In this document: piece after piece, positions 653-61,995 of the stretch
How positions within the stretch are numbered: position 1 is the first letter of the stretch
How the letters are laid out: every line of letters begins with the position of its first letter
Origin: Cephalotus follicularis
Taxonomy: Eukaryota > Streptophyta > Magnoliopsida > Oxalidales > Cephalotaceae
Assembly: GCA_001972305.1 (NCBI GenBank)
Contig: BDDD01000039.1
Location: forward strand, 702,274 to 766,273
Length of the DNA: 64,000 nucleotides
Reading direction: 5' to 3'
Notes under the pieces: generated by a model
Database searches by the model: none
What the model was told of the DNA's origin: nothing
The model's input: only the letters and a program-made list of their open reading frames with translations
Made by a program: the position numbers and the translations under genes

Positions 653-1159
653 CAGTCGGCTGGATTTGGACGGCAGTCAGCTGAATTGATGGCGCGTTTA
701 TTTGAATATAGCCGTTGGGTGTGGGCAGTCGGCTGGAATATGTAGGCAGTCGACTGGTATGCTCGGCAGTCGACTGATCCCCTGCTTTAGTCGGCTGTTG
801 AGGCTAATTTTGAAATTACAAAACCTACTGCCAGATTTTACACCATTGAAGGCAGTCGGCTGGATTCCCTGGCAGTCGACTGGACCTCATGGCAGTCGAC
901 TGTTCCCCTGCTTCAGTCGGCTGGATTGGGTGTAAAATGATACAGAAGCTTCTGCCTGATTTGTACCCCATGGCAGTCGGCTGATGCCCTGCTACAGTCG
1001 ACTGGAATTGCCTGGCAGTCGACTAGAAATGTCTGGTAGTCGACTGGACTGGGTTTCCTACAGATTCTACGGTTTGGTTGAAGATACAGTCGACTACATA
1101 GCCTTGAGAGTCGACTTCTTTTTCCTGGGCAGTCGACTGGATTTCCCTCCAGTCGGCTG
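653..1159. repeat. Cluster of CAGTCGACTG-type palindromes
   Basis: About 18 copies of a 10-bp motif lie in 507 bp. Six are the perfect palindrome CAGTCGACTG (747, 767, 873, 893, 995, 1130). About four more keep the GTCGAC core, and most of the rest read CAGTCGGCTG. Many are flanked by GG on one side and GA on the other. Spacing is irregular, mostly near 20 bp or multiples, so this is a dispersed motif cluster rather than a head-to-tail satellite. Confidence 0.9.
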
Positions 1160-1323
1160 GAATTGCCTGTATCTGCAAAACCATTCTTGACACAACTTTG
1201 GACACAAGATTAAGCGAGTATATGAAGTTATAACTTAAAGAATTATGCATACAAGTAATCTATGTTTGTTAATCATCAAAATAACACATGGTAAACAATT
1301 AATCGGGGTGGCAAAGGCCAACA

Positions 1324-3482
1324 AATGACATCGACGGTCTTTAGGCAAAACGCTATAAGCGTCGACGCCTGCATGAAAACGTCGATGCTTTACTTCGTGG
1401 TTCTGATATGTGCAAACAGCAGATAGACGTGTCGCATGGTGGCATGTTTGTGCCACTCCTCAGGCATCTTGGCAGACACTTTGGGGACGTGTTATGCATG
1501 CAATGTGATGTCTAACTTGTCAGGACTGAAAAATAAACTGAAGGGAAAGGGACATGTGATCATGCATGAACTAGGAGAAGGAAGAAATGGACACCTGTTG
1601 CATCAGGTGTGCAAGAGAGATAGAAATGACCTGTTAGGTGCATGCAAGTGAAACAAAATGAGAAATGGCATAAAGTCGGCTCTCTCACCTCACTCTCATC
1701 TGTTATGAAATCCAGAGAGTTTAGAGACATTGTGAGTGACAAAGGAGAGCAAAAAAATTATAGAGAGAAAGCCCAACAACCATTGTTGAGCAAAGGAAGC
1801 TTGGATCTTGGACAGCGACTATTGGAACGAACCAGGGAACCTTCAGGCCGAACCTGGGACCCAAAGTGACTGATTGGATACTAAATGAGGTGGACTTTCG
1901 ACTTCTAACTTGAAGCCATAGGTAGGGGAAGCCATACTTGTATTTTGTGTTCAATATTTGGTGTTTGATCAGTGATGTTTATGCATGGATTGTATGGCCT
2001 ATTGAACAGTTTTTGGTCACTGAATTTATGCCATCTTGTACTGGATGTGTAATATGATGTTGCATGTCAGTTTTCTGGGCTTAATATGTACTGGTTTACC
2101 TGTTTTGGGGTTGGAAATGTTACTGTTTTGTCATGTCACGAGGAAGAAGACGATTGAGGCTTGAAAACCTTGACGCTTTGTACTGTGAACTGCGTTTTAT
2201 TTACTGAATGCATTTTAAACGTCGACGCCTATGGGAGAAGACACCGATGCCTAAGGTACAGAAAGCGCTGACACCAAGGATCGAGCGTCGACGCTTAGAG
2301 GACATAAGCGTCGACGCCTAAGTGAAAGACATTGACGCTTTAGAGTCCTGTTTGGACAGTTTTAAGATTTCAATGCCCGATGATCCCGATTTCGTTTAGG
2401 ATGCATTTGAGCATTTTTATGCATTGCATATGTACTGTTTACTGCCCGTTTAATAAACGTTTATAAACTGTTATGATTCTAAATTGTTATATTAATTTTG
2501 AAATGCATATATGAGTTTGAAAATATTAAATGGATATTGATATATTTTGAACATGCTGGGAAAGCAATTTCAACTACTGAAACTGTTTAAAGTATTTTCT
2601 ATCTATTGGAAATACATATTTCAAATGTATATGACTTCGAAAATAATTTGAAATGAACTGCCTATTATTGATCTATCGATCTTTACTGTACTGTTACTCA
2701 CTGTTTACTATGACTATTCATTTTTCATGCTCTGTGAATTTACTGTGTTTGTGCTTGAACCTACTAGTTGCGTGGCGGGGACTGTCACCATTGACTAGTG
2801 GCAGGGTTGACCTAGGGGCCAGGAGTTGTCTGGGTAACTCACTGTACTGTACTGTTGACTTGCATGGTTGTCCGGAGACGGGACCGAAGTGAGAGTGCAA
2901 CATGGGGCCAGGAGTTAGTGGTGTTGTACATACTGATTGCCTGTTTATGGTCCCTTTGTGGACATACTGTACTGTTTACTGGTCCTATTCGGACACTACT
3001 GTACCTCATCATTTACGCTTACATTTCATGACATGCATGTAGTGTTGATCCCAAATTGCTCTTATGACTTAGCTGAGTGAGGACAAAGGCTAACCCCCTA
3101 CTTTACAGATTGATGCAGTGGACCGGCTTTGGGAATCAGCATGGATGAAGTACAAGTTTTAATAATGTTTTTTTTTTTACTTGGGGTTATGTCTCTTTGG
3201 GTGTTGTGTACCATATTTTCCGGTTTACTTGACTTTTGATGCTACTGGATACTGTATTTTGGGTCACGCTCCGTTTTGTGGGCTTTTAACTATGACAGAC
3301 ATGTATTTGGTAACGTGTAGTATGGGATGCACGTTACGTGCCTTTCAGCTTATGAGTTTTAATGCTTCTGCAACTGTTATCATGTTTGAAAAGTTTACTT
3401 TTTTTATGGTTTTTGCATAAGCTGAATCTTAAATGTTAATTGTCGCCACTTTTATGTTGTTTACTGAAAACGGGGTGTGACC
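1324..3482 (+). mobile_element. Gypsy-1 5' LTR, left part outside window
   Basis: This segment is collinear with 11966-14312. It carries several GCGTCGACGC-type motifs, including perfect copies at 1359, 2285 and 2308. It has the usual conserved stretch before the LTR end, near 3085 (GGACAAAGGCTAACCCCCTA). It ends in GGGGTGTGAC next to a primer binding site. Confidence 0.88.
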
Positions 3483-3485
3483 GAG

Positions 3486-3497
3486 TGGTATTTGAGC
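3486..3497 (+). other. Gypsy-1 primer binding site
   Basis: The sequence TGGTATTTGAGC, three bases past the LTR end, is a diverged form of TGGTATCAGAGC, which is complementary to the 3' end of initiator tRNA-Met. Confidence 0.75.
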
Positions 3498-3593
3498 ATA
3501 TTCCATATATGCTTAGCTAGGATATTTTCCTTGGCAATTAATAAGTTGTTTTTCTAAAGTTGTGACTAATTATCATTCTTCTTATAGGAACAA

Positions 3594-4769
3594 ATGGACA
3601 GAAGGAGGACACGTGCTAGGGCTAGAGCTGCTGGAGCAAATGCCCCTGAGGAAGTGAATGTTCCGCAAGGGATTAATGTTCCCCGAGATGAGAGAGATCC
3701 AATGATCCGTATTGCGGATTATTTTCAGCCACAGATGGCCTTTAATATGGCTAATGCGGAGGAGATGCGCCAGTACTACGCGCAAGCTCGGTCGCGACAT
3801 AGAGCTCCTGACCATTGCCCGAGAGAGGATGGTAATCAGTTTGGGAGGGACCTTGAAAGGTTCATCAGGAAGAATCCACCCAGTTTCCAAGGGGAACTTG
3901 ATGCCACCATTGCTGAGAGATGGCTGCAGCATTTGGAGAAAATCTTTGAAGTGATGGACTGTACGGACGATCAAAAACTGAAGTTTGCTGTATACCGTCT
4001 GTGGGGTGAGGCCACTCATTGGTGGGAGATGGTCAAAGCAAAGTGGGAATCTCAGAGGCTTGAAAATACTTGGGACAGATTCCAGACAGAGTTCTTGGAC
4101 ACCTATGTTCCATGGATTGAGCAAGAGCGACGGGAGACGGAGCTCTTGGAGTTACGACAGGGGGAGATGCCGGTAACAGAGTATCAAGAAAGGTTCATAG
4201 AGCTAGCCAGACATTCACCCTATTTGGTGGTTGATGATGGAAAAAGATACAGAGGTTTCTGAGGGGTCTGTGACTGGATTTTCGGTCAAGAATTAGGGCT
4301 ATGGAACTGGGGACTTTTGTAGAAGTTGCTCAGAAAGCAAGACTACTGGAGAGCATATCCAGTGAACCGGGCTGAGAGGGCTCGCACACAACAGAATGAA
4401 CAGAGTCCTACACAATCCAGACCAGCATCGTCGAAATGGCAAGAGGGTGGTTCTCCGACGAAATCATCCAAGAGCAAATCTCAGCAAACAGCTTCACAGA
4501 GTTCTCTGAGCCAAGGGAGTAGTGCTAGATTCGGAGGTTGTTTTCATTGTGGTCGTACGAGCCACCAACAGAAGGATTGCTGGAGGTATAATGGCTGGTG
4601 CTTGAGGTGCGGGGCACCTGGTCATTCGGTGAAAGATTTTCCAAAGAGTTCAGCGACAACACCTACTGGGCCAGGAAGTAGTAGTGGTGCGGCGGCGGGA
4701 CCATCACAGAGGAGAGACACCGGCAAGGGCATCGCAAAAGGTAGAGTTTTTGTACTTGCCCAGACATAG
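3594..4769 (+). pseudogene. Gypsy-1 gag remnant with zinc knuckle
   Basis: The first block (3594-4262) has the Retrotrans_gag signature: a basic N-terminus, then FQGELDATIAERWLQHLEKI, WWEMVKAKW and LDTYVPW..QERRETELLELRQGEM. Gag forms the capsid-like particle that packages element RNA. The second block (4326-4769) is a Ser/Gln/Pro-rich linker followed by a CCHC nucleocapsid knuckle (CFHCGRTSHQQKDC) and a second knuckle-like unit (CLRCGAPGH). Order and spacing fit chromovirus gag. The region is a fossil and does not encode one continuous product. Confidence 0.88.
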
Positions 4770-4904
4770 GTTGCAGAGTCGACTTCAGTTGTTAGAGGTA
4801 CTCTGTACATATATGGCTTTTCTGCTAGGGTGTTGATGGATTCTGGAGCATCGCATTCTTTTATATCTACATATTTTGCATCTTGCTTAGATGTTACCCC
4901 TGAC

Positions 4905-4909
4905 CGCAT
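4905..4909. repeat. Target duplication CGCAT, left copy
   Basis: CGCAT here matches CGCAT at 8385-8389 on the far side of the solo LTR, a 5-bp target-site duplication as expected for LTR element integration. Confidence 0.9.
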
Positions 4910-6146
4910 TGTAATATCCCGTTTTTCCGTATAGAATTTTAGGGCTTTTCGATTTGTTTCGTGTGGGCTATCGATTTTTTTTTTCGGTTTGTGGACTGCC
5001 CATTTTTCGGTCTGTTTTGCTTTTGGCTAGGCTAGGCGGGTTTTGGCCTTAGCCTAGTGGGTTTTGATATTAAGTCCATGAATAAATAAAACAATTTTGA
5101 CTTTTTATTTACTTGTTAAAAACCCTTTCAGCATTTTTAAATAACAAAAACCCTATTTTATATTTATTTTTCTCTCTCTCTCTCCCACAACCCTCTCTCC
5201 CGTTCTTTCTCCCCACTCAGCTGCTGTCACTGGCGTCGGTGCAGATATGGCACCGGCGAAGGCACCGGTCAAACCCCCACGAGCTCCTAAGTCCACCGGA
5301 CCCAACCCCTACGCCGAACAACGGCTCCTTCGGCGTGCGCGACGTCTTCTCTTCCCGCCACTGTCGAATGCCATAGCTCCGTCTCCGGTGATCGTCATGA
5401 CAAGACAATCACATATTCGGCATCCTGGCTTCGAGAGGAAGCGAACTTGACCAGCCCCGACCCTTGGCAATGCCAGAAAAGCATATCAGTGCAAAGTCAA
5501 CCGTGGTCAAAAGAGTCTGTTCCAGCCAAATGAGGCGGCGCCGTGGCAAACGCGCCCTGGATATGTGACCCCCGGTCTCAAATGCTTCAGATCGGCCCTT
5601 TTCATCATCTGACCGGCAACGCGTGACAGACACGCGCCGGCCAGCGGCGGCTCGTGAGCCCACGCCCGGCAGTCTCCTGCGACACATTTTTGACAGTTTC
5701 CAACTCCGTTCTCTGCATAGGTGTGATCCGTTTCAGTTTCGCGATGTGATTATGACCCTGTGCTCCATTCCGACTAATTTCGGTAAACTCTGAACCTTAC
5801 TCCGTTAAATTCTATTTCGGTTGAATTATGTATTTCTGTAATCGTTTTACGATATTATGAGTTGAACTAGTATTATGATTCGAAATTGGATGAATTGGAC
5901 AAATTGGACTTACCTTAGTGAATTCGAAAATATGTTTAGATGAGACTTCTGCGAATTAGACGTATAAAACCTATTATTATCTTATATGGTCATGATCAGT
6001 GTACATTGACCCATGAGTCGAGGTCTGATTTTATTTCAAGTCCTTATGAGAACGATTTTATTTCTGTTAGATATTTGCAACAACCGAGGAGCGGTTTAAA
6101 GAAGTCTCGATATATATTCTCTGGGTTGTTTTGGTGATCGCATGAG

Positions 6147-6840
6147 GTAAGGATTTTCCGCTCTTTGGTTATCTGATTTTATTGGAACTATCCCATTTCA
6201 CTTTTATGATTAAAGTATGGATCTTCGTTTCTTGATACACTCTTACTGATTTTATTAGAGTACAAATTTAGTTCTATTTTGCGAATAATATATGGATCCT
6301 TCATTTAGTTATCATTCGATTTTATCTGAGTTGAATCTGTTTGTTGAAATGTACGGATTCTATCGTTCTTCTATCTGATTCTACTGAAACAATCCAGTTT
6401 CACTTTTATGATTAATGTACGGATTATTCTTTCGTTCTTGGATACCCCCTTCGATTTTATTGAATAAAGTCAATTTTACTATTTAATGATTATGTATGGA
6501 TAACTCTTTCTTTGATACCCTCCTACTGGTTTGTTAAAGAATAAATTTCAGCTTTATCTTTCATTATTGTACGGATTATCTTTGCTTTGGATTTCTCTAT
6601 CGGTTTTATTGAAATAAAGTCGGTTATGTTTTCTTTTGTACGGATGTCCTTCCTTGGCTATCCTTCTGATTTTATTTGAGATAATTTCAAATTCTGTATT
6701 TGGTATGGATCCCTTTTCGGGGTTATCATCGATCGGTTTTGATTAAATAAACCTGTTTTATTGCCTAATGGATATGTACGAACACTATCACTCTTGGGCT
6801 ATCTGATTTTATCGAACGAAAATCAGCTTTGTTTTTATGC
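6147..6840 (+). repeat. Degenerate roughly 70-bp array, about 10 units, in F LTR
   Basis: About ten diverged units of 58-77 bp can be aligned. Each begins near GTACGGAT or GTATGGAT, then has a CTTTC/TTCTTGG stretch, then ends near TCTGATTTTATTGAA. Unit starts are near 6150, 6217, 6292, 6350, 6417, 6494, 6571, 6639, 6704 and 6774. The reverse-oriented LTR at 41197-44745 carries the same array. Confidence 0.8.
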
Positions 6841-7619
6841 TATGTTCTTTCGGTTTATGAACTCGGTCATGTTTTATGGTTTCGATATGTTTCGAAAATA
6901 AAGTCGGTTTTTGACATTTTATGAAATTTGAATGTTCTCGACTTTATTATTCTTATGCTATGATATGTTATGAAATATGTTATGATCATCTCTTTTATGG
7001 TGGAAATAAATGAGTTGATTTCTGATTATGAAATGTACGTTATGATATTGTTTGTTAACGATTTTTGAATATGTTTCGAAAAAGCATGTTTATATGTGTT
7101 TTTAAAGTGATTTTGATAAATCAATGTTTTCGAAATGATTGAATACTGAGTATTGTACCCACCTATGGGGCGTACCATAGGCATGTCGTAGGCCTGGCAT
7201 GGGGACATGACACTTCCGTAGCGGTGTGATTAGTCTACGACGTCTCTGAATGTTATGAATAAATCCCATGAGGTGGATTTATGGATCCGCTATGTGATAG
7301 AGGCGTATGAATCGATTCTAGTATATAATATGTGATGTGATATGATATGTTATGAGAATTGATATGTGTAGTGCCGTACACTTCAATTCTACTTGGCATG
7401 TGGAATTAGCTACTCCCTTGCTATATGTGTTCTGATATGTGATATGTGGCTCAGTATGGAACTTATGTTTTGAAAGGTTTGTCATACGTTTTGAAAGTTA
7501 TGGATTTGGTTTTTATGAAAGTTCATATATGACTTCAAAGAATGTTTAAACTAATTTATTGCTTAAGATTTCTGTTTTGAGTTAACTTTGAAATCTTACT
7601 GCTTTAAAATTATCATTAT

Positions 7620-8010
7620 CGTTTACTGTTTGTTTTGTTTTGTTCCGTATTCTGGTTGTTTCGTACTATTCAGAAACTGTTTTCTTTTGTTCCGTAAATT
7701 GTTCTACTCTGTTTCGTAGAGTGTTTCGTTTCGTAAAATGTCTTGTATCGCATCGTGTTTGTTTCAGATACTGTATTGAGCATGATATTGTTTTGTTTCG
7801 GATACTGTTTCGTTTTGGTAAACTGCTTTGTTTCGGACACAGTTTTGTTTCGTTCTGTTATGATTCGTAACTGATCTGTTATGATTCGTAACTGTTCTGT
7901 TTTGTTTCATAACTGTTCTGTTTTGATTCGTATCCGTTTGATTCGTAATTATGTTGTTTCGTAACTGATTTGTTTCATAAACTGTTCGTAAACTGTTTTA
8001 TGATTCTATA
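7620..8010 (+). repeat. Short degenerate repeats of TTCGTAACTG type
   Basis: The stretch is dominated by overlapping variants of CTGTTTTGTTTCGTAA with a period of roughly 16-20 bp. The same block, reverse complemented, is at about 41580-41950 and 46930-47300, so it is a property of the F LTR. Confidence 0.75.
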
Positions 8011-8384
8011 TTTGTACTGAGGTTTGATCAGTCGCGTTTTTGTTTCCATGCAGCAGGTTTTCAGGGACAGCATGGGCAAGTCTGATGAGAGAGTTACCCT
8101 ATGTCAGAGGATCATCTAGGAGTTTGATCTGGTTATATTTTTAGTAGTGTTATGGTCGTGTATAGGCCAGTTATCTAAACAGTATTGTGATTTTGGTTTA
8201 TGACAAAGTTTTCAGATTATGTTTCAGATTCAGTTTATGTTCCATGATGATACATGTTTTAAGATTTTTAGAACCACCACATATTGATTAAGATTAAGAT
8301 CTTTGATATGTTTTTAGTTCAGTTTTGTGTAACACACCGATCCCGAATCGGGAGTGATCCCGGTTCTGAATCGGGGATGTTACA

Positions 8385-8699
8385 CGCATGTCATATATGC
8401 TTGATGTGAGTACACCGACTGGGACTTCTATGTACACTGACTCGGTATATAGGAGTTGTGAGATGCCTATGGCAAGCATTTCCTTGTATGTAGATTTGAT
8501 TGTGCTACCTATCAGTGACTTCGATGTTATACTGGGGATGGATTGGCTATCAGCACACCGTGTTCGCATGGATTGCTATAATAAAACTGTGGAATTTTGT
8601 CTACCCGATGGAACAACATTTCAGTTCAAGGGAGACAAAGGGTTCTCCACATTGATCATATCCTTTATTCGAGCATCGAGGTATCTAGAGAAGGGATGA
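8385..8699 (+). pseudogene. Gypsy-1 protease region, right part
   Basis: Residues such as DVILGMDWLSAHRV match the C-terminal part of Gypsy aspartic proteases. The active-site part (LMDSGASHSF, around 4830-4860) lies on the other side of the inserted solo LTR. The retroviral-type protease would cut the element polyprotein. The insertion inactivates it. Confidence 0.85.
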
Positions 8700-8744
8700 G
8701 AAGGGTACCTGGCTTACGTAATTGATCGAAGGAAGGAGAAAGGT

Positions 8745-9347
8745 TTGAGTATGGAGGACATTCTGGTTGTGTGTGAATTTCTGGATGTGTTTCTTGATGA
8801 CTTGGGGTCTTTACAACCGAAGAGGAGTATGGAGTTCGTTATTGATCTTGTTCCTGGAACGACTACTATCTCTAAAGCACCTTATCGGATGGCTCCTGCC
8901 GAGTTGAGGGAGTTAAAGTTACAGTTGCAAGACCTGATTGATAAAGGTTTTGTTAGACCCAGTGTTTCTCCGGGGGGTACGCCTGTGTTGTTTGTCAAGA
9001 AGAAAGATGGATTGATGAAGGTTCGCATCGATTACAGAATGCTGAATATGGCAACTATGAAGAACAAGTATCCGTTGCCCCACATCAAAGATTTTTTCGA
9101 CCAGTTGCAAGGGTCAAGGGTGTTTTCCAAGCTCGATTTGAGATCGGGTTATCACCAATTGAGAGTAAGGGAAGGACACATTGAGAAGACTGACTTCCGG
9201 ACACGGTATGGTCACTACGAGTTCTTGTTGATGTCGTTTGGTGTTACCAATGCACCGACAGCTTTCATGTCATTGATTAATGACGTATTTCGGCCATACT
9301 TGGATCAATTTGTCATGGTGTTTATTGATGATATACTGGTATGCTAG
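8745..9347 (+). pseudogene. Gypsy-1 reverse transcriptase fragment
   Basis: About 200 residues align with the Gypsy reverse transcriptase. Visible motifs are [66 protein letters not shown] and the catalytic box with FIDD. The enzyme copies element RNA into cDNA in cytoplasmic particles. The palm domain is well preserved but sits in a broken element. Confidence 0.93.
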
Positions 9348-10054
9348 AGGAGTGAGGAGGAACACACTCATGATCTGAGGCTAGTATTGCAGGTTCTTAG
9401 AGAGCACCGTTAGTATGCTAAGTTTAGTAAATGTGAGTTCTGACTTGATCATGTGATCTTCCTTGGTCATATTGTATCTGGTGAAGGTTTGCGGTGGACC
9501 CGTTGAAGACAGAGGCAGTGCGAGATTGGCCGCAACCAAAGAACGTGACTAAGGTGTGCAGTTTTCTTGGCTTGGAGGGATATTACAGGAGGTTTATTTA
9601 GAACTTCTCAAGGATTGCTGTACCTTTGACCAGACTAACTTAGAAGAAGACCTTATTTGTTTAGGATGAATATTGTGAAGCTCGTTTACGTCAACTGAAG
9701 GATCGGTTGGTTATTACACCAATCTTGGCATTACCTAAGTGTAATGAGTGTTTTGTAGTCTGCAGCGATGCATCGGGTAAGGGCTTGGGCTGTGTGTTAA
9801 GGCAGCAGGGCAGAGTGATTACATATGCCTAGAGGAAGTTGAAGCCTTATAAGGAGAACTACCCGACACATGACCTTGAACTTGCAGCGATTATTTTCGC
9901 CCTTCAGAAGTGGAGGCACTATCTTTATGGGGCGCAGTTTGAAATCTTTACAGATCATAAGAGTTTAAGGTACCTGTTCTGCCAGGATACACTGAACATG
10001 AGGCAACGCAGGTGGGTGGAATTATTTAACGATTATGATTGCAATATTCAGTAG
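9348..10054 (+). pseudogene. Gypsy-1 RT thumb/connection and RNase H remnant
   Basis: The stretch carries the end of the RT and an RNase H domain. Recognisable pieces are CSDASGKGLGCVL, then [21 protein letters not shown] and [10 protein letters not shown], which match Gypsy RNase H. RNase H degrades the RNA strand of the RNA/DNA hybrid during cDNA synthesis. The region is broken. Confidence 0.9.
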
Positions 10055-10072
10055 CATCCGGGGAAACCGAAT

Positions 10073-11638
10073 GTGGTTGCTGATCCCTTGAGTCTCAAGG
10101 CTATGATTGCCAGTACGATGGTATCGCAATGGAAGATGTTGGAAGATTTCCAGGAGTTCCCCCCGTTTATTCAGTCACCGGGAGTCTTTCTGGCTAGCAT
10201 ACGAGCGCGACGGACGCTACTAGATCATATGAAGGATGCACAGTCACAAGATCCTGAGTTGCAACAGATTCGAGAGAATCTGGATTCGGAGTCTGATTTT
10301 CGAATACATGCCGATGGTGTTTTGAGATTCCAGGGGTGGGTGTGCCTTCCGAATGATAACGAGTTCAAGAGTGAGTTGCTTTACGGGGCTCATAAATCTC
10401 AGTACAACATTCACCTTGGTAGCACAAAAATGTACCAAGACATAAAGAGGGATTACTGGTGGCCTCGCATGAAACGAGAGATCGCCGAGTATCTAGCAAG
10501 GTGTTTGACTTGCCAGACTGTTAAGGCCGAGCAGCAGAGGCCGACAGGATTATTGCAGTCGTTGCCAGTGGCAGAGTAGAAGTGGGAACACATAACTATG
10601 GACTTTGTTTCGGGTTTTCCACTCACTCGTAACCGTCACAATGCAGTGTGGGTTATCATGGATAGCCTCACAAAGTCAGCTCATTTTCTACCCACTCATG
10701 TTATAGACTCAGCGAGCAAGTTGGCTCGATTGTATGTTAAGGAGATCGTATGACTGTATGGTGTTCCCGTGAGTATTGTTTGTGACAGAGATTCGATCTT
10801 CACTTCAAACTTCTGGAAGAGATTTCAAACAGCTTTCGGGATGAAGCTGAACCCGAGTACTGTCTTTCACCCTCAGACAGATGGGCAGTCTTAGCGTACC
10901 ATCCAGACCTTGGAGGATATGCTCCGGGCTTGCATTATCGACTTTGTTGGTACATGGGAGGATCACATTTCTTTGATAGAGTTTTCTTATAATAACAGAT
11001 ATCATTCCAGTATCGGCATGGCACCGTTTGAAGCCCTATTTTGGAGGAAGTGCAAATCTCCTGTGTGTTGGGATGAGGTCGGTGAGCGACCTTTACTCGG
11101 GACTGAGTTGGTGGAGGACACTTCGGAAAAGATCAAGGTCATCAAAGAGAATATGCTTGCTACTCAAAGCCAGCAGAAGAGCTATGTGGACAGTGTCAAG
11201 AGGAGGCCTTTGACCTTCAGTGTTGGTGATCATGTGTTCTTACAAGTTTCACCATGGAAGGGCATACAAAGGTTTGGGAAGAAGGGCAAGTTATCTCCGC
11301 GTTATATTGGTCCTTTCGAAATTTTGGAGAGGGTTGGGGAGGTAGCCTACAAGTTTGCCTTACCTGCTGCACTGTCAAACGTGCACGACGTCTTCCATGT
11401 GTCTATGCTGAGGAGATATATCCCAGACACATCACATGTCCTGGATTATAATGCAGTTCTCGTGCGAGATGACCTTTCTTGCGAAGAGTCACCGGTACAG
11501 ATCCAGTACTGGAAGACACAGGTACTGAGGAACCGAACCATCTCCATGGTGAAGATTCAATGGCAGTTCCACCGACTGGATGAGGCCACTTGGGAACGTG
11601 AGGAGGATCTCCAACCGCGTTACCCACACTTGTTCTAG
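10073..11638 (+). pseudogene. Gypsy-1 integrase with chromodomain-like tail
   Basis: In order there is an HHCC-type zinc finger (around 10373-10530; H..H and CLTCQ), a DDE core (around 10580-11050; TMDFVSGFP, then [10 protein letters not shown], then FHPQTDGQS), and a C-terminal module with KGKLSPRYIGPFEILERVG and NVHDVFHVSMLRRY. The last roughly 60 residues (QWQFHRLDEATWEREEDLQPRYPHLF region) are the chromodomain-like end of Tekay/Del chromoviruses, thought to steer integration to heterochromatin. The fossil has more than one break. Confidence 0.92.
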
Positions 11639-11674
11639 TACTGTTTTTAATTTCGAGGACGAAATTCCATGAAC

Positions 11675-11684
11675 GAGGGGTGGA
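11675..11684 (+). other. Gypsy-1 polypurine tract
   Basis: GAGGGGTGGA directly precedes the TG start of the 3' LTR and serves as the plus-strand DNA primer in this family. Confidence 0.8.
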
Positions 11685-14312
11685 TGTAATGCCCAGGAAT
11701 TTCATGCATTGTAATAATTTAATTTCCAATGTAACCTTATCATGGAATTAATGAGAGTAATTACATTCCCGACTTTGATGATATTTTCCAAACTCTAATG
11801 ATGTTGATTTTGGAGTAGGAATGTTAACGAAATGTTAAAAGGGTGCATTTTAAGTCAAACGGCACAGTTTTGGGTTGAAAGCGTTGATGCCTTTTGGAAA
11901 GCGTTGGACCCTACGCAGTAATGATGCATACATGAACCATGCACATGCACGTCGATGCCTGTTAATGACATCTACGCTCTTTAGGCAAAACGCTATAATC
12001 TTCGGCGCCTGCATGAAAACATCGACGCTTTACATCGTGGTTCTGATATGCACAAAATGCAGATAGAAGTGTCGCATGGTGTCATGTTTGTGCCACTCCT
12101 CAGGCGTCTTGGCCGGCACTTTGGGGACGTGTTATGCATGCAATGTGATGTCTGACTTGCCAGGACTGAAAAAGGAATTGAAGGGAAGGGACATGTGATC
12201 ATGCATGAACTGGGAGAAGGAAGAATTGGACACCTGTCGCATCAGGTGTGCAAGAGAGAGAGAAATGAACTGTTAGGTGCATGCAAGTGAAACAAAATGG
12301 GAAATGGAATAAAGTGGGCTCTCTCACCTCACTCTCATCTGTTACTGAAAGCCAGAGAGTTTAGAGACACTGTGAGTGACAAAGGAGAGCAGAAAAATTA
12401 GAGAGAGGAAGCCCAACCACCATTGTTGAGCAAAGGAAGCTTGGAGCTTGGACAACGACTGTTGGGATGAACCAGGGAACCTTCAGGCCAAACCTGGGAC
12501 TCAAAGTGACTGATTGGATACTAAAAGAGGTGGACTTTTGGCTTCTAACTTGAAGCCAGAGGTAGGGGAAGCCATACTTGTATTTTGTGTTCAATATTTG
12601 GTGTTTGATTAGTGATGTTTATGCATGGATTGCATGGCCTGTTGAACTGTTTTTTGTCACTGAATTTATGCCATTTTGTACTGGATGTGTAATATGATGT
12701 CGCATGTCGGTTTTCTGGGCTTAATATGTATTTGTTTACCTATTGTGGGGTTGGAAATGTTACTGTTTTGTCATGTTGCGAGGAAGAAGACGACTGAGGC
12801 TTGAAAACGTCGATGCCTTTGGAAAGTGTCGACGCTTTGTACTGTGAACTGCATTTTATTTACTGAATGCGTTTTTAAATGTCGATACTTATGGGAAAAG
12901 ACATCGACGCCTAAGGTACAGAAAGCACTGACACCAAGGTTCGAGCGTCGACGCTTAGAGGACATAAGCGTCGACGCCCAAGTGAAAGATGTCGACGCTT
13001 TAGAGTCTTGTTTGGACAGTTTTATGAATTTAATGCCCGATGATCCCAATTTCGTTTAGGATGCATTTGAGCATTTGTATGCATTGCATATGTACTGTTT
13101 ACTACCCGTTTAATAACCGTTTATAAACTGTTATTATTCTAAGTTTTTATATTAATTTAGAAATGCATATATGAGTTTGAAAACCACTATGTTTGAGTAC
13201 GAAAGTATTAAATGGATATTGATATATTTCGACCATGCGGGGAAAGCAATTTCCACTACTGAAACTATTTAAAGTATTTTCTATCTATTGGAAATACATA
13301 TTTCAAATGTTTATGACTTCGAAAATACTTTGAAATAAATTGCATGCTATTGATCTAACGATCGTTATTGTACTGTTACTGCACTGTTTACTGTGACAAT
13401 TAACTGTTCATGCTCTGTGAATTTACTGTGTCTGTGCTTGAGACGTACTAGTTGCGTGGTGGGGACTGCCAGCATTGACTAGTGGCAAGGTTGACCTAGG
13501 GGCCAGGAGTTGGCTGGGTAACTCACTCTACTGTACTATTGACTTGCTTGGTTGTCCAGAGACGGTACCGAAATGAGAGTGCAACGTGGGGCCAGGAGTT
13601 GGTGGCGTTGTACATATTGACTGCCTGCTTGTGGTCCCTTTTTGAACATACTGTACTGTTTACTGGTCCTATTCGGACACTACCGTGCCTGTTGATGTAG
13701 CCCTGGCCGGGTTACTATTGTACTGTTATTGCATACATATATTTCCATATATATGTCCCTACTGTTATTTTACTGTACTGTTAAATTATATATTTTTTCA
13801 TATATATATATATAAACTAGTATTTTTACTGAACTGCATCATCTACGCATACATTTCATGACATGCATGTAATGTTGATCTCAAATTGCTCTTATGACTT
13901 AGTCGAGTGAGGACAAAGGCTAACCCCCTACTTTACAGATTGATGCAGTGGACCGGCTTTGGGAATCAACATGGATGAAGTACAAGTTTTAATAATGTTT
14001 TTTTTTACTTGCGGTTATGTCCCTTTGGGTGTTGTGTACCGTATTTTCTGGTTTACTTGACTTATGATGTTACTTGATAATCTATTTTGGATCACGCTTC
14101 GTTTTGTCAGCTTTTAACTATGATGACATGTATTTAGTAACGTGTAGTATGCGATGCACGTTACGTGCCTTTCAGCTTATGAGTTTTAATGTTTCCGCAA
14201 CTGTTATCATGTTTGAAAAGTTTAATTTTTTTGTTATGGTTTTTGCATAAGTTGAATCTTAAATGTTAATTGCCGCCACTTTTATGTTGTTTACTGAAAA
14301 CGGGGTGTGACA
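11685..14312 (+). mobile_element. Gypsy-1 3' LTR
   Basis: The 2628-bp LTR begins TGTAATGCCC after a polypurine tract and ends GGGGTGTGACA. It carries GCGTCGACGC-type motifs in two groups (about 11880-12030 and 12800-13000), with perfect copies at 12945 and 12968. It has an AT-rich block near 13735-13835. It is the uninterrupted reference for the 5' LTR that Copia-2 cut. Confidence 0.92.
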
Positions 14313-14319
14313 GGAAGTA

Positions 14320-14374: not shown

Positions 14375-14386
14375 CTTCCCCGTATA

Positions 14387-39624: not shown

Positions 39625-39627
39625 AGT

Positions 39628-48184: not shown

Positions 48185-48252
48185 ATAGAACAGTTTTCCC
48201 TATGGTTTGACTTGAGGAATTTTGAGGACAAAATTTCTTAATGTGGGGAGGT

Positions 48253-50897: not shown

Positions 50898-51460
50898 GAA
50901 ATTCTGGCCAGGTGTAGGCGTCGTGGATATCGGGTGATTCTGGGGAGGTCCGCCGAAGTCACAATGTGTTCACAGATTTATATGGTCGCGAAATTTCTGG
51001 GGTGGACATTTAATTCACACCCTAGTCCGTGGTCGGAGCCAATAGTGATAAGGGTTACAAGACACATATGCTGAAGATGGGCTTACAGCTCTGGCTATCT
51101 GGTTAATGACTGATAGACATGGTTATACACGGATCCGGGGGTGATGAGAGCTCACATCAGGGCCATCTTGTGAATAGTCTATAGGACTATTAGAATGGTC
51201 TTACTAGAACTCGGGATGTTCTAAGAAATTTATCAGCGTACCGGATATCGACCAAGCTTTCTGGGTCCTGCCTGACTTTGAACAGGTTGACGTGTGAGGG
51301 ACACATGTCATTTAGTAAAAGGAAAACATCAAGGAGATGTTTCTTTTGCTAGTGAGTATTTCATATGCTAGATTTAGGTCCATGCAAAGCCACGACGAAA
51401 TATTCCATGCGAAGGGTTGTGAAAATATAAGAGATTGTCTCATCTTTGTCTTAGGCGTCG

Positions 51461-51990
51461 AAGCCATGAAGAGAATGCGTCGGCGCCATGTCTAGTTGAG
51501 TTGCTGGGCATTAACGCAAACGGCATGCATTGACGCTGATAAAACCAGTATCTTTTCACATTGACGCCACAAGGGATACACGTCGACGCCATAACTAGAT
51601 AAAGTCCCTGGCATTAACACCATGGAGAGCATGCGTTGACGATTCAAAAACCAGTGACTTACGTGTTGACGTCATAAGGTTTATGCGTCGACGCTAAGAA
51701 AAACAAAGACTTAGTGCCTGTTTCATCTTATCGTTGGCGTTGAGGCCTAAGATAGTATGAGACGCATGGCATTGACGCCATGAGGGCTGACACAAGGCTT
51801 GTCACCAAATTTGAGAGAAATTGGTTTGACTTTGTGGGATAAAGTAGGAGAGAGAAAGTCAGACTATAAATAGCCTTAGAGAAGCTTGTTCAACACACAA
51901 GAGGCTTGACTTTTTCTCTCTCTTCCCTGCCGTGCATTCTCTTCTTGCTGCTAGCGTAAGCGTTGACGCCATGGGTTAGCGTCGACGCCA
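51461..51990. repeat. GCGTCGACGC-type motif cluster in Copia-3 5' LTR
   Basis: About a dozen variants of GCGTCGACGCC lie in 530 bp. Perfect GCGTCGACGC is at 51685 and 51979, and CGTCGACGCC at 51581. Many decayed copies read GCGTTGACGCC or CATTGACGCC, as expected from loss of CpG to TpG. Most lie upstream of the TATA box at 51865, with two downstream. Confidence 0.85.
51865..51874 (+). promoter_or_regulatory. TATA box of Copia-3 5' LTR
   Basis: CTATAAATAG matches the plant TATA consensus and is conserved at 61871-61880 in the other LTR. It lies downstream of the main motif cluster. Confidence 0.65.
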
Positions 51991-52778
51991 AAATCGCCTG
52001 GATTGAAGAGCAGCCATTTTCAACCATCCTTTCACCCCTCAAAGCTCTATATAGGTGGAGATGATTTGTTCCTTGCATCTCATCTTTATCTATAGAGTTT
52101 ATAGTGTAGGATAAACACTTAAACCTTCATCACCATCTTCTTTGTGCATGGCTTAAGGAGGAGCTTGGAGCTTTAATGGAGATTTGGGATTAAAGTCGTG
52201 AGGGCGCTCTTGAAGGAAGGAGCCATCACTTGAGGTAACGAAATTCTTGTTTCCCTTCTTGTGGATTCAGATTGGGGCTAGGGTTTGCCAACCCTAGCCA
52301 AACCCAAGATGAATGTTTTGTTTTGTCTTGTGTTGGAATTGTTTGTTATGGGGTATATTTTGCAATTTCGGGTTACGGCTAGGGTATGCGTACCCTGGCC
52401 CAACCCCCTGGTTTTGTGGAGGAACTATTGCCATCCCTTAGGGTTAGGGATAGTCTTGGTTCATGTTTGTGGGTCAATTGCTTAGGGTTTGTGTGTGTTC
52501 CCTTTATGCATCTGTTAGTGACCGAAGTGAGAGTTTACGACAGCTCTTACTCCAAACCCGTTCCTCCCTTATGCTTGGGTGGTGGTGTTAGCTTGGCTAC
52601 ATGCTCTACTAGGGTTCCTGGGCTTACTGGGAAAATTGTGGACATTGTTTAGGGTAACCCATTGCTTGGGGATCAATCATTTGATTGAAAATTAAAATTT
52701 ATCACCCTATACACCTGATGCCCATAATTGAGATGTGTTTCGCTTCCACTGCGCTTAGAGCCTATGTCATTCCCAGCA

Positions 52779-55700
52779 AGTGGAATCAGAGTAACCTAAT
52801 GGGCTACAGTTGAACCTTGATTTGATATCTAGTGGCTTGTAGGTTAACTTTATGGCTTGACTGTTTTATATCAATTCCATCCCTAGAGTGCAATTGGAAA
52901 TTTTGGTTCAATTGGAATGTTGCTCATTCTGATTGTTTTTGTCAATTGAGTGAACTAGCGTAAACGACTAATTAATGGCTAGTTCGATGAGCCGAAGATT
53001 AGTACATAGGGTGTTTGAGAACCAGGGGAGCATTCAAAAATCCAGTGTAAAATTTAGGATCTCGAACGGACCTTAAAAAGTCATTAAACGTGGGTTTATA
53101 AAGTGACTGTAATTTTTCCTTGAAAAACTGGTTGTGTGCATTTCTTTCTGTTAAGACTTTCAGTACTTATTAGTATAGTCTGTCTGACAGATTACCTAGC
53201 CGTTAAGAGCGGAGGCACACACCATGGTGTTTCGAGAGGAAATTTAATTCACTTATACACTAAGTTCGTTAATATAATGCAATATATATTTCAAGAGGAA
53301 ATATGATATTCAAGAGGAATATTAATATTAGTTTGCTAATATTTAATTACATTATTCTTTTTATTCACTCAACCAAATCAAATGGAAGAGCCATGAGATT
53401 AAATGTAGTGAGAGACTACATTAAGGGACACTAGATTTTAATTAATTTAGTGGGAGTTGCATTCTTGGTTGGCCATTAGTAAAATCGACGAGCCATTGAA
53501 TATTAAATTGTTTAAGTGTTTATTCATTAAATATATTGGTTATATTTTTTGAATTTCTTATGCATGCTAGTAGGCTTTGGGACTAGGCCTAGCTTTTTGG
53601 TTTCTTTCGTGGATGATTTAAATTCTTTATTATGCTTGGTATTCATATGGTCTGTAATAAAGCTGCCTGCGTGCGCCATATTAATTTTCTTGTTCTTAAT
53701 TTTATTCGTGGTAGAATAGAAATCTCTTCTCCCTCTTTTGTATTTCTTTTTCTTTTTATTCTGTACATCAAATGTAAGTTTCTAGAAAAGAAGCAATGGA
53801 GATTGAAGAGAGGATCAAGAAGATTTCAAGACCAAGTGAAGGACATGTATGCGTGGTAGCATATGTAATAAAGTATTTTAAATTAGTACACCTAGGAGAC
53901 CAAGTGATCACATTGGCTCGCGTGGTCACTAGTAGTTTCAGTCCCAAGTAAGGCCACTTTTAGGGTGCATGAGATGGATGTTTTCTTTTTGCAAACAATC
54001 TAAATACATACAAGCATGTAAGCCGTTCCAAATTGATTGGAAGATACAAATGGATCTTAAAAACGGCTTGGCTAAAATAAAACTTAATGAGACCAACAAA
54101 TTCCTCCAAACTAGAAATAATAAGTCCATAAGTGGTGGGGCATATGGTTGCCCTGTCGTTGGACTTCCACCATCTTCGTTGAATGGTGTGGACATATTGG
54201 GGATGGCACCAACAAAAGCTGAGGTCCCCCGTATTACCATTTCTATTCAATTTCAGTACATGGGTTGTACTGGAAGGTAGTGACCACGTTTCTAATACTC
54301 TGACAGGCCAAAGCGTGTGGGTGTCCAAATGGGTTTGTTTCTTTGAGTATTGTGGGTTTGACTTATACCGGGATCTTATGGTTACCATCATGCCAAAGCA
54401 GAGACCATAAGGGTCGGAGGCCGAAGCTTGTATCGGATCTTACACTAAGGGCAACAGGTCCTAATGTAAATTGGCACTCATGTCTACCTATTCGGGTATT
54501 ATGGTTTGTACAGCGAAAGTCAGGACCATAGTATGCTGGATAGATTCTGATCCCTACTAGGAGACGAGAGGCTTCCCGAGTTCCACATTGGAGGTGTGGG
54601 ATACGATTAGAATAGTGGGAGGAGCCATAATTACTAAAGACCAATGATTATGGTAATAACATTAATTGGAATAATCTGCTAAAACTTCTCTCATATTTTC
54701 TCTAAATAGGTTGCTAGACATACTCAATCTTACTTAATTGGTAGTCAGCACCACACATATAAGTTTAATGGCAGCGTTAGGTATCCTTGATACTCACGAG
54801 CATGAGAGAGCCTCATGTGATGACTGAATATTCCCAACCCTTCATGTAAACCTGTCAAAGAGTGACAAGACCAAGGAGGTCAAATGGTTGCATGAATTAT
54901 GAGCACACATGGAAACCTTAAGGGTCATCCTTACACAACTAAGAGAGTTGTTTGGCTCTTAAGAGGCAGATTTGGTCTATGGTAGGACCAAATCAGCCAT
55001 GCTCATACTTTTATCTTCTTATGGGACGAAATCTGAGAGGGATAGATCATGGGATCATGTTCCAAAGGCAAGGAGCCTTACAAGATGAAAGGGTAACACA
55101 CAAGGAGTGCTTAGGGATGCCATTAATGAAAGGATCACAAGGAGAATGCTTGCTACGGGAAGCAAGGCATTAAAAAGGAAAACTGTAAATGTTCCTTAAA
55201 TCCACATATGCTTTTGAACATACAATGTGAGTTCAACTTGAGTAAGGAACTCAAGTTATGACACTAACATTAATATCTCTATGCAACGAGCTAAGAGAAG
55301 CCAGGCAGTAAGGAGCTGTTGAAGCTGTGGATATATGCCTTGGTGATGAATAAGGGGATTCACACCATTTGCATAGGCGTAATGAATTGTTTTATATTGC
55401 AAATGGATATATACTGTATTCTTAAATATAGAATATTGAAAGAAACCTTGTTTCAAATTTTTATGAGATAAGCAATGAGCTTGAATTTGTAGTATAATTC
55501 TTTATTCTCATACATAACAATATTCTGGTTAGTGCAAGAGGCATGTGGATTAAAAGGATCTAAGTTTTAATCATTGCATTAACAATTCAATAAGGAACAA
55601 ATAATAAAAGATTATGAGAGATAATGGGACTTTCTCTCTAAATGGACATCTCTGGAAAAACCATATGGGAATGGTATATCCGTACGGAGCATATGGACTT

Positions 55701-58263: not shown

Positions 58264-58268
58264 GGATC
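58264..58268. repeat. Target duplication GGATC, left copy
   Basis: GGATC here and GGTTC at 60631-60635 flank the solo LTR, with one mismatch. Confidence 0.75.
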
Positions 58269-60016
58269 TATAACGACCCCGACCTGAGCTCGCTAATAGC
58301 TCGAAGTGAACTTCGAGGATCGGTTGTGTTACGTTGGGTGTGAAACGTTACATCCTTTAATACTATTCTTTAAAAGTACACTACATCATAAACTCATGTC
58401 TTGCAACATCATACATAATCTTAAATTCAAACTTTACACATAATCATCTTATATAAAGATGTCATAACCATATCGTTCGTCTACATTACACAGGATCATT
58501 CTTCTACCTAAACATATAATACAACGAAAAACTTTGTTCTTATTACGTATCAAAACATTAATGCAAATATCATCGCATAGCCTTTCTTTCACAAAAACTC
58601 CTTCTTAAGAGCTTCCACTAAGCTCGTAATCTCCATTCATTCATTCCCTGAAAACATTTTATTTGAAAACAACATTGAAAGGAATAAGCTCAAAATAGCT
58701 CAGTAAGGTGTTTTTATAGTAAACACATTTCATCATAACATTTTTCTAGTCAATACATATAACTAGAACATTTCATAAAGCATATTACATTTCTAGTTAA
58801 TATCATAACTAGATCATTTTGTAAACATGAAATTCATAAAATCCTTAATGAACCCTTTACACCGCTTCATCGGGGCATTGTGCACTCCCCGACTACTATT
58901 CTTACATCACATACATGTCCGTGAGCATCTCGCTCCATTAACATTGAGCATCTCACTCCATTCCCCTTGGATCGCAATCCAAGGGTGGTTCATTCATCAT
59001 TTACTTTGAGTTATCAGCTCAAAGCAATCATAAAAATCATTTCATAACATATCTTTCACAATTCATAAACCTTTCTCTTCATTTGAGTAATTGACTCAAA
59101 TGAGTTCATAAAAATAGTTTTGTATAGCTTTACTAAACCTGATAATTCATATAGAAATAAGCATTTTCAGAGAAAACTTAAAACATAAAAATTAAAGTAG
59201 ACATATTTACGAAGTCAAAAAGCTCAAGAACATAATAATTGGTTGAGAATCAAATCCGTTATGAATTTTAGAAAGTGGCTGGTTCCATATGAAAATAGGG
59301 CATGAGCAGTAAAATGAAACATCAATTCTCGTCAAGAATTTGACAGAATTTCGAGGTACATAAAACATAAAAGTTAAATAGGACATCTTAATGTTTTCAA
59401 AACATCCAACCATTTAATTTTTAATGAAGAAACGAGAAAGATATGATTTAAAGAAGTTGCTGCATAATCTAGGAATAAAATAGTACCCAAACAGAAATTT
59501 AAAACATGAATTTCCATCAAGAAAACGATAGAATATTGAAACATTCAAATCATAACAGTTGAAGAGGACATCCTAACATTTCCATAACATCCAACCATTC
59601 AAAATTTCATCAAGAATTGAACAAGATATCAATAGAACAATCTGCTGCATAATTGAAAGCAAAACAGGGGATGCTTTGTAGAGAATGGGTATAGAATTTC
59701 CTTAGTTTGCTTTAGAATTTCTTTCTCTTTTACTCTCCACGAATTCTCCACTTCACTCTCAGCAGGAACACTTTCTTTCTCAGCCAAAATGACTGAGTTC
59801 AACCCTCTTAGACATTAAATAGAAGGATTACTTGGGAGGCAAGTCTTCCCTAGCAGCCCATGTGTTTAAATTCAACCAATCCAAGTGTTTACACCTGTTA
59901 GATTACCAGATAACATATCATATCATCCTCCCCTGGCCTGCCACGTGTCCAAAATTAAAGATTTTTACTCAGAAAATGCCAAAAAGCTAGATTTTGGATT
60001 TTGTCTCTAACTCAAA

Positions 60017-60390
60017 GCGTCGACGTTTTCTTTCTAAGCGTCGCCGGTCACGGGCTTGACTTGAGTTTTTCGCTTCTATCCCGACTAAAGCGCTGACGCT
60101 TTCTTACAAAGCTTCGCCGCTTTAACTCTTCGTCCAGGTCAACTGACACACTTGACTTCAACGCATCGACGCTTAAAATTAGAGCGTCGTCCGTTGCCCA
60201 AAGTGTTGACTCTTTCTCGTAAGCGTCGCCGGTGTGAGGGCTTTGTCCAATTTACCGTTGCACTGGTTTAAAGCGCAGATAGAAGAGGTCTAAGCGTCGC
60301 CCGTTACTACCCAAGCGTCGACGCTTGAAGTGGAACTGTCGACGCTTCAGACATTTTTTTTTGTCAACTCTTAGCCTTTTAGATTGACGC
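60017..60390. repeat. GCGTCGACGC/GCGTCGCC motif cluster in solo LTR
   Basis: About a dozen motif variants lie in 370 bp: a perfect GCGTCGACGC at 60315, GCGTCGACGT at 60017, TGTCGACGC near 60337, and several AAGCGTCGCCGG and AAGCGTCG variants. On the minus strand this is upstream of the putative TATA region. Confidence 0.82.
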
Positions 60391-60440
60391 TTTCAACATG
60401 ACATCCATCCAAAACAAATAGCCAATTTCAATTTTCTTCC

Positions 60441-60512
60441 GAGGGCGCTGCCCCCGAGCCCCTGCCCGCTGACCGGGCAGCCGGACCCCCCGTCTGCTCA
60501 CCGGGGAGCAGA
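60441..60512. repeat. GC-rich block with two adjacent hairpins
   Basis: The block contains CTGCCCG(62-68)/CGGGCAG(74-80) at 60462-60480 with a 5-base loop, and TCTGCTC(60493-60499)/GAGCAGA(60506-60512) with a 6-base loop. Both stems are perfect 7-bp pairs. A shorter GGGC/GCCC stem lies at 60443-60453. The surrounding LTR is AT-rich, so the block stands out. Confidence 0.88.
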
Positions 60513-61460
60513 ACACCCGAACCCCCCGAGCGTAGGGTCATACTACGGATCCCTTGAACTATTTGCCAATTTACACAATAGCAATCATTTTCCATAATTA
60601 ATATCTTACATGGAAACTTGGGTCATTACAGGTTCCCTATTGTTTTTGGTAGTGTATAGTCTATGGTGACTAGTAGGTCTTTGCCTAAGTTGTATCCTTA
60701 AACCTGAGCAACTGCCCTGCGTTGTGCAGTGACTTCATGGCTTTGATTTCTGCCTTCCCTAGCATTAGCCATGTACTGGCAAAAGGGTTGTCTTTGGGTC
60801 ACGTTGGAGCTGCATTGAGTCGTATGAGCGAAGTTTGCAATATGGAATCATCATAGTCGTAATGATGGATGAATGGCTCTATATGATCTTGACCATTGCT
60901 GACTGAAATCCTTGCCAGGTGTAGGCGGATTGCATATCGTGTGATTCCGGGGAGGTCCACCAAACTCACAATTTGTTCACAAATTTATATGGTCACGGTA
61001 TTTCTATGGCGGACATTTAACTCACACCCTAGTCCATGGTCGGAGCCAATAGAGATGAGGGTTACATGACACATATGTCAAAGACGGGCTTAAAGCTCTG
61101 GCTATCTAGTTAACGACCGATAGACATTGTGATACACGGATCCAGGGGTGATGAGAGCTCACACTAGGGCCATCTTGTGAATAGTCGAGATGACTATTAG
61201 GACTGTCGTACCAGAACTCGGGATGTTCTGAGAAATTTATCAGCGTACCGGATATCGACCAAGCTTTCCGGGTCCTGCCTGACTTTGAACATGTTGACGT
61301 GTGATGGATACATGTCATTTAGGGAAAGGACAACATCATGGAGATGTTGCTTTGTTAGTGAGTATTTCATATGCTGGATTTAGGTCCATGCAAAGCCACG
61401 ATGAAATATTGCATGCGAAAGGTTGTGAAAATAGAAGAGATCGTCTCATCTTTGTCTTAG

Positions 61461-61995
61461 GCGTCGACGCCATGGAGAGCAAGCATCGACACCATGTCTA
61501 GTTGATTTACTGGGCGTTAACGTAAATGGCATGCATTGACGCTGATAAAACTAGTTGCTTTTCACGTTGATGCCATGAGGGATACACGTCGACGCCATAA
61601 CTACATAGAGTCCCTGGGCGTTAACGCCATGGAGGGCATGAGTTGACGATTCAAAAACCAGTGACTTATGCATTGGCGCCATAAGGTTTATGCGTCGACG
61701 CTAAGACAGACAAAGACTTAGCGCCTATTTCATCTTATCATTGGCATTGATGCCTAAGATAGGATGAGACACATGGCATTGATGCCATGAGGGCTGACAT
61801 ATAGCTTGTCACCAAATTTGAGAAAAATTGGTTTGACTTTTTGGGATAAAGTAGGAGAGAGAAAGTCAGACTATAAATAGCTTGAGAGAAGCTTGTTCAA
61901 CACATAAGAGGCTTGCTTTTTCTCTCTCTTCCCTGTTGTGCATTCTCTTCTTGCTGCTAGCGTACGCGTTGACACCATGGGTTAAGCGTCGACGC
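61461..61995. repeat. GCGTCGACGC-type cluster in Copia-3 3' LTR
   Basis: Homologous to the cluster at 51461-51990. Perfect GCGTCGACGC copies are at 61461, 61692 and 61986, and CGTCGACGCC at 61587. Comparison of the two LTRs shows CG-to-TG or CA changes at several motif positions, consistent with decay of methylated CpG. Confidence 0.85.
61871..61880 (+). promoter_or_regulatory. TATA box of Copia-3 3' LTR
   Basis: CTATAAATAG is identical to the 5' LTR copy at 51865-51874. Confidence 0.65.

Follow-up and report, generated by a model that had tools for sequence, protein, structure and literature searches.

Array-bearing elements in the window

The window analysed here is a stretch of 64,000 nucleotides of the Cephalotus follicularis genome (positions 702274-766273 of contig BDDD01000039.1, C39), in which the long terminal repeats (LTRs) of several retrotransposons contain clusters of CpG-bearing palindromes with a TCGA core, in most cases GTCGAC. 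These palindromes belong to two types (I and II), whose sequences are given below. Pfam analysis of the larger open reading frames (ORFs) of the window identified Ty3/Gypsy, Copia and LINE-like reverse transcriptase fragments.

The Copia-2 LTR shows a type II array at 724-1140, formed by CAGTCGACTG (starting at 747, 767, 873, 893, 995 and 1130) and CAGTCGGCTG variants, with intact neighbours 20-22 or 50 bp apart inside the clusters. On the minus strand, a copia-like primer binding site (PBS) was found by word search at 42, a TATA-like CTATAA was located by eye downstream of the array at 604-609, and a word count found CAACGGCTA, a promoter word common to several array-bearing LTRs, at 709-717.

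Gypsy-1 and Copia-3 are on the plus strand, and their LTRs were delimited by self-alignment. The 5' LTR of Gypsy-1, as aligned, covers 1324-3481, although its real 5' limit is possibly truncated, and contains type I sites at 1331, 1362, 1382, 2222, 2288 and 2311. It is followed by a PBS, TGGTATTTGAGC, at 3486-3497 with two mismatches to the searched word, and by Pfam matches to gag (PF03732, 3588-4259), reverse transcriptase (PF00078, 8700-9344) and the integrase C-terminus (SH3_Tf2-1, 10895-11635, with a chromodomain under the cut-off). The aligned 3' LTR (11964-14311) contains type I sites at 12022, 12810, 12904, 12948 and 12971, and another is found at 11952, just beyond the aligned part. 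Copia-3 shows a 5' LTR at 50892-52779 with intact type I sites at 51583, 51688 and 51982, besides altered copies; a TATA box, TATAAATA, at 51865-51872, downstream of the first two sites and upstream of the third; a PBS, TGGAATCAGAGT, at 52781-52792, also with two mismatches to the searched word; and a 3' LTR at 60899-62785 with type I sites at 61464, 61589, 61695 and 61989. A putative solo LTR, so labelled in a preliminary description of this DNA, lies at 58269-60630 and has type I sites at 60020, 60166 and 60318.

Abundance and make-up of the palindromes

Beyond the window, we sampled 20 stretches of 10 kb spread along contig C1 (200 kb, one stretch with 2.3 kb of N), and three stretches of 9.9 kb and 20 of about 1.65 kb picked around PF20167 genes; sampled loci are given L numbers. 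The 8-mer, pair-spacing, half-site-count and upstream-region analyses were based on the 200 kb, to which the window was added in some cases; the similarity-group, flank, CpG-change, spacer-filter and CAACGGCTA analyses took in the three 9.9-kb stretches as well. Genome-wide counts were taken over the 1.577 Gb assembly, using each motif written backwards as its control; since these reversed controls have no CpG, AGTCCGGACT, one CpG-centred palindrome with the composition of CAGTCGACTG, was also counted.

GTCGAC was found 31 times in the window, against 4.6 expected, and none of 100 dinucleotide shuffles reached this number. With the same kind of shuffles, 0.00 copies of GCGTCGACGC and 0.02 of CAGTCGACTG were expected; the window contains 12 of the former (starting at 1359, 2285, 2308, 12945, 12968, 29322, 51685, 51979, 60315, 61461, 61692 and 61986) and six of the latter. 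Genome-wide, there are 73,186 copies of GCGTCGACGC (121 reversed), 197,377 of CAGTCGACTG (939 reversed), 521,160 of RCRTCGAYGY, GCGTCGACGC included (9,296 reversed), and 77 of AGTCCGGACT. A ranking of the 8-mers with 25 or more occurrences in the 200 kb, with a second-order model as background, is headed by versions of a single family (CATCGACG, GACGTCGA, GGCGTCGA, CAGTCGAC, AGACGTCG and others). Thirty-one of the 35 window sites with both half-sites typed fall in six LTR intervals that make up 17% of the window, two of them (653-1159 and 58269-60630) taken from the preliminary description; the same scan found no typed site in the LTR pair 36972-39622/48252-50895.

These counts bear out the observation of the preliminary description that GTCGAC-core palindromes are clustered in LTRs, on a larger scale than it had given. 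Of the copies that it listed, the leftmost one of the first Copia-3 cluster (about 51455) is altered to GCGTCGAAGC and the one at 60017 reads GCGTCGACGT. Its motif forms part of a wider family that takes in ACRTCGAYGT.

In the window plus 200 kb, both halves could be typed in 230 of 830 TCGA sites: 135 are I/I, 58 II/II and 37 hybrid. The typed sites group into 47 clusters of at least two sites, of which just two (L005 7493-7668 and L008 4309-4342) combine fully typed sites of both kinds, I and II. Once similar flanks were removed, 94 of 150 type I sites gave a symmetrised half-site of approximately WAARRCRTCGA, and 51 of 71 type II sites gave CAGTCGA with little beyond. The type I site is up to about 18 bp long (AAAGRCRTCGAYGYCTTT) and the type II site has 10 bp (CAGTCGACTG), with little information content in the positions that flank them. 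The R/Y variation of type I may be partly CpG change. An asymmetric variant, CGTCGATG, is repeated in a single orientation in some arrays.

Copia and Gypsy carriers

Type I as well as type II sites occur in LTRs of both superfamilies, Sirevirus-like Copia and Ty3/Gypsy. L005 contains two LTRs, a polypurine tract (PPT)-like AAAAAGGGGGAGATTG, a PBS, a copia gag and a downstream PF20167 gene with a disrupting stop; type II arrays are found in its LTRs and before the PF20167 gene, the latter array including one type I site. L006 shows a PPT of the same kind, a PBS, a copia gag and two LTRs that each contain type I arrays, and is flanked on either side by AGCTG, resembling a target-site duplication. 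We take the PPT and PBS of these two elements to be Sirevirus-like, in keeping with the multiple PPTs described in PMC2829016, and the elements themselves may be members of that group. Among the Gypsy carriers, Gypsy-1 has its PBS, Ty3 gag, reverse transcriptase and integrase end all on a single strand, and each of its LTRs contains type I sites. In L016, one LTR spans about 876-3636 and the other extends from about 7396 onward, each with type II arrays, and the PBS at 3641 shares its strand with reverse transcriptase, RNase H and integrase zinc-binding domains.

In agreement with the preliminary description, which had considered the LTRs otherwise unalignable, those of Gypsy-1 show no alignment with five Copia LTRs except matches of 17-28 bp; the site is therefore common to otherwise non-aligning LTRs. 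L016 and two type II Copia LTRs align only along some 80 bp of array (72-73%) and in shorter segments, and in this case an array may have been exchanged between superfamilies. The type II LTRs of Copia-2 and L005 align mutually (72% over 339 bp) and are not independent cases.

L007 was considered as a Gypsy element with type I LTRs and was rejected: the positions of its PBS and PPT put the arrays in Sirevirus-like LTRs, its Ty3 gag belongs to another element, and the locus was withdrawn as Gypsy evidence. The likeness of the L006 and L007 LTRs (84% over 493 bp) is therefore found within one kind of element and does not represent superfamily exchange.

Position of the arrays relative to TATA

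Arrays were located upstream of TATA, partly by eye, in five Sirevirus-like LTRs: Copia-2, Copia-3, L005, L006 and L007. For Copia-2 and Copia-3, this is the position given in the preliminary description. The order array, CAACGGCTA and CTATA box is shown by Copia-2, L005, L006 and L007; Copia-3 has a CTATA box without CAACGGCTA. This word, which we take to resemble the M-phase MYB3R element, occurs 19 times in the sample, compared with 0-1 times for each of five composition-matched words; in 11 cases it is no more than 300 bp away from a cluster, in surroundings that make up 10.7% of the sequence. Besides the window copy, it was found at L005 4852, L006 3211 and 6543, L007 1175 and 6954, and L016 3287 and 9848; in L016, a Gypsy LTR, it is about 1 kb from the array. 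Genome-wide, on both strands, CAACGGCTATA has 9,759 copies, against 533 reversed.

Spacing of neighbouring sites

Pairs of TCGA in the window plus 200 kb peak at 19-22, 41-43, 50-52, 61-63 and 70-72 bp, with 119 pairs at 19-22 bp, 57 at 41-43 bp and 28 at 50-52 bp, compared with eight at 24-27 bp. No series of peaks was found for ACGT, CCGG and GCGC, with 12, 6 and 8 pairs at 19-22 bp, respectively, these control words being rarer (515, 315 and 230 occurrences) than TCGA (832). Genome-wide, GTCGAC forms 224,538 pairs at 10-40 bp (control 3,925), 174,792 at 19-22 bp (control 1,783) and 6,252 at 24-27 bp (control 398), that is, 28-fold more pairs at 19-22 than at 24-27 bp. At the places listed, the spacers between paired sites are widely different, with related copies recurring.

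When one cluster was taken per similarity group (15 groups), 26 of 36 spacings were within 1.6 bp of a whole helical turn, against 26% expected (p = 1e-8). Removal of similar spacers left 88 of 147 spacings; the 57 of these that exceed 25 bp continue to group close to multiples of 10 bp, to a degree matched by none of 2000 random sets.

CpG-transition derivatives of GTCGAC (288 words) are paired 23 times with an intact site 19-22 bp away, and other substitutions at the same CpG (189 words) five times; pairs are counted here, and one word may count twice. Because the transition copies sit at phased positions, the arrays were probably once larger and have probably been methylated.

PF20167 genes

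PF20167 is said to be related to ATHILA ORF1, and an Athila protein partially similar to it is predicted to be nuclear, according to PMC11728184. A first look genome-wide gave 13,073 PF20167 candidates, and all of the 150 that were scored were over the cut-off. Many of these 150 are open frames of 300-450 amino acids. We drew 20 loci from the scored candidates, chosen as PF20167 genes irrespective of the carrying element. The 310 bp that precede the open frame contain a fully typed site in 15 of them and an at least half-typed site in 17, and the remaining three show, by eye, copies altered to GTCAAC, GTTGAC or GTTAAA. Sixteen of the 20 were compared by alignment and show 77-97% identity to L029; the loci represent one clade and are therefore not 20 independent cases. 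In L032, two sites upstream of the PF20167 gene, a type I site and a hybrid, are separated by 43 bp and have TATATAA between them, and TATA between upstream sites was also seen by eye in other loci.

The PF20167 genes found in L005 and in L007, distant relatives with 22-42% in the main comparisons, precede the PPT and LTR, a position that would make them env-like. In a small comparison covering the window and the 200 kb, the 700 bp upstream contain sites in two of three PF20167, three of seven gag2 and three of ten RVT2 regions, in one of nine Ty3 gag, one of nine Ty3 reverse transcriptase and three of 12 RNase H/integrase regions, and in 20.6% of random windows. No intact site lies within 700 bp upstream of the L008 PF20167 region. 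At this locus (5061-10000), Copia gag and pol ORFs are followed by the PF20167 region on the same strand.

The type II array of L027 was rejected as a PF20167 upstream array, as it shows the 48-28-21 spacing of L016 and a PBS. At 4221-5655, a type II Gypsy LTR appears to have inserted at the start of the PF20167 gene, replacing its upstream region, and the locus was therefore excluded from the PF20167 claim. An AlphaFold2 model of PF20167, built with 21 aligned sequences, reached a pLDDT of 48, too poor to judge.

Other features of the window

Two isolated sites were found in the window: a GCGTCGACGC at 29322-29331 and a site with type II halves, GAGTCGACTT, at 4776-4785. A long repeat is present in two oppositely oriented copies (4908-8384 and 41197-44745) with some 93% similarity across 2.2 kb; part of a third copy lies at 46560-48186.

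Discussion

Dimers that bind cooperatively on one face of the DNA are expected to give whole-turn spacing, free spacers and dyad symmetry. We consider it likely that the palindromes described here are binding sites of a dimeric sequence-specific DNA-binding protein, grouped in promoter-proximal arrays. Sites two, four, five, six or seven turns apart would set dimers on one face of the DNA, an arrangement that would suit cooperative assembly. Because arrays sit in Copia LTRs, in Gypsy LTRs and before PF20167 genes, one or few factors, host- or element-encoded, could drive several element families; protein binding, dimerisation, cooperativity and activation rather than repression are all features that we infer from the arrays. 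The preliminary description had proposed a shared regulatory motif, and this idea is supported by the concentration in LTRs of the window, the position upstream of TATA in the five Sirevirus-like LTRs, the phasing and the carriage by both Copia and Gypsy. The function as a methylation target, which it had also offered, is unsupported: CpG transitions hint at methylated sites, but methylation gives no reason for whole-turn spacing.

Several observations weigh against the binding of phased dimers near promoters. The nearest downstream TATAWA is about 290 bp past the array in L016 and about 150 bp in Gypsy-1, and promoter proximity is therefore claimed for the Sirevirus-like LTRs and not for the Gypsy LTRs, which are in turn represented by one family per site type (Gypsy-1 for type I, L016 for type II). 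The best-fitting period, 9.9-10.1 bp, is slightly under 10.4 bp; an off-phase spacing of 27-28 bp recurs in type II arrays, including the L016 Gypsy family; and single off-phase spacings of 12, 13, 30-32, 36 and 37 bp occur. Pairs of CRTCGAYG are only 3.3-fold more frequent at 39-42 bp, four turns (22,775), than at 34-37 bp, 3.5 turns (7,001). Finally, the genome-wide motif counts represent copies, inside or outside LTRs, and not independent events.

The arrays might alternatively act at the RNA level, adjacent palindromes pairing in the transcript as hairpins that serve the element or feed small-RNA silencing. Folding is indeed better than in dinucleotide shuffles (z of -4.8 for 724-1140 and -4.0 for 51441-51710), and maize Sirevirus regions with palindrome clusters are reported to show a small-RNA excess (Bousios et al. 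2016, via PMC10760457). However, any palindrome array folds well, so such z-scores are expected; hairpins need no whole-turn spacing, least of all one of five turns (50-52 bp); and most sites of the Sirevirus-like LTRs inspected precede TATA and are not in the 5' part of the transcript, which makes this explanation unlikely. That the arrays are a neutral by-product, formed when a unit of about 21 bp was duplicated in tandem and spread by transposition, agrees with internal likenesses of 77% in the window (724-901 with 851-1024) and in L007 (1489-1681 with 1600-1792). It is nevertheless very improbable, since sites of 10-18 bp are kept while spacers differ, five-turn spacings are no multiple of 21 and the same site is found in non-aligning Copia and Gypsy LTRs. 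The CpG transitions at phased positions (23 pairs against five), by suggesting methylation, would fit sites bound by a host repressor or silencing factor instead of an activator; elements would be expected to lose such sites rather than multiply them, and similar sites are retained before PF20167 genes, so that we regard a repressor as quite improbable.

A special case of binding by a dimeric protein is that the factor is encoded by the elements, PF20167 or another element protein binding the arrays and activating or unsilencing its own and other families. Many PF20167 genes show sites and TATA just upstream, the family is large, with 13,073 candidates and no failure among the 150 scored, and the partially similar Athila protein has a nuclear prediction (PMC11728184). 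On the other hand, PF20167 is no more than a candidate DNA-binding protein, its structure model is poor (pLDDT 48), the upstream sites of two of three PF20167 regions compare with three of seven gag2 regions and 20.6% of random windows, and the L005 and L007 genes are in the env position. An element-encoded factor of this kind is thus unlikely.

Among known systems, CBF/DREB sites (RYCGAC) are single non-palindromic cores. GTCGAC and ATCGAC match RYCGAC and the CAGTCGGCTG variant contains GCCGAC, but the conserved flanks found here extend past the core. VANDAL21 elements are DNA transposons. In their anti-silencing system, VANC21 motifs are same-orientation YAGTATTAY sequences in VANDAL21, for which an element-encoded binder has been shown (Hosaka et al. 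2017, PMC5735166). The likeness lies in a short motif forming dense arrays in non-coding parts of the element and differing between families, whereas the sites described here are palindromic or nearly so, are found in LTR elements and have a binder that is only predicted. Nor do they share one orientation, though CGTCGATG runs one way in some arrays. Maize Sirevirus LTRs also contain palindrome clusters in their cis-region (Bousios et al. 2016, via PMC10760457), but with the motif CACCGGACNNNGTCCGGTG, and that work is reported to deal with RNA structure and small RNAs.

The closest system is that of the Sirevirus palindromic CpG repeat boxes (RM), which Bousios et al. (2010, PMC2829016) described in front of TATA and again in front of env; as they include CGGTCGACCG of Vitis, upstream of TATA, the earlier statement that no described system is known to match does not stand. 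In that paper, no common binding site of a single factor could be named for the boxes. The Sirevirus-like elements studied here likewise have numerous CpG palindromes in each LTR, located upstream of TATA and, in L005 and L007, again before a gene that is env-like by position, and the Vitis box has a GTCGAC core and ACAATCGATTGT of Tnd-1 a TCGA core. With the exception of Tnd-1, the published boxes have CGG-CCG cores, whereas the core here is TCGA with C-R or CAG flanks. They were also called Sirevirus-specific among the Ty1/copia elements compared; such restriction does not hold here, where both LTRs of the Ty3/Gypsy elements Gypsy-1 and L016 carry sites. The existence of two TCGA-core types, both of them found in either superfamily, and whole-turn phasing are further differences. 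A word search of the PMC2829016 text found no statement on box spacing, searches of open-licence PMC papers, judged mostly by their listings, found no report of arrays shared with Gypsy or of their phasing, and an exact-motif literature search gave no plant LTR motif paper among the matches listed, judged by titles and abstract openings. The kind of system is thus already known from PMC2829016, and what is added here are the TCGA-core types, the helical phasing, the Gypsy LTRs and the scale.

It is conceivable, if unlikely, that the factor of one family, perhaps PF20167, works for a whole community of unrelated Copia and Gypsy retrotransposons with converged or exchanged sites. If one factor runs unrelated LTR families by way of a shared, helically phased array, bursts of transposition in large plant genomes may involve whole communities rather than single families. 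The array can also serve directly as bait for the factor behind the Sirevirus palindromes known since 2010.

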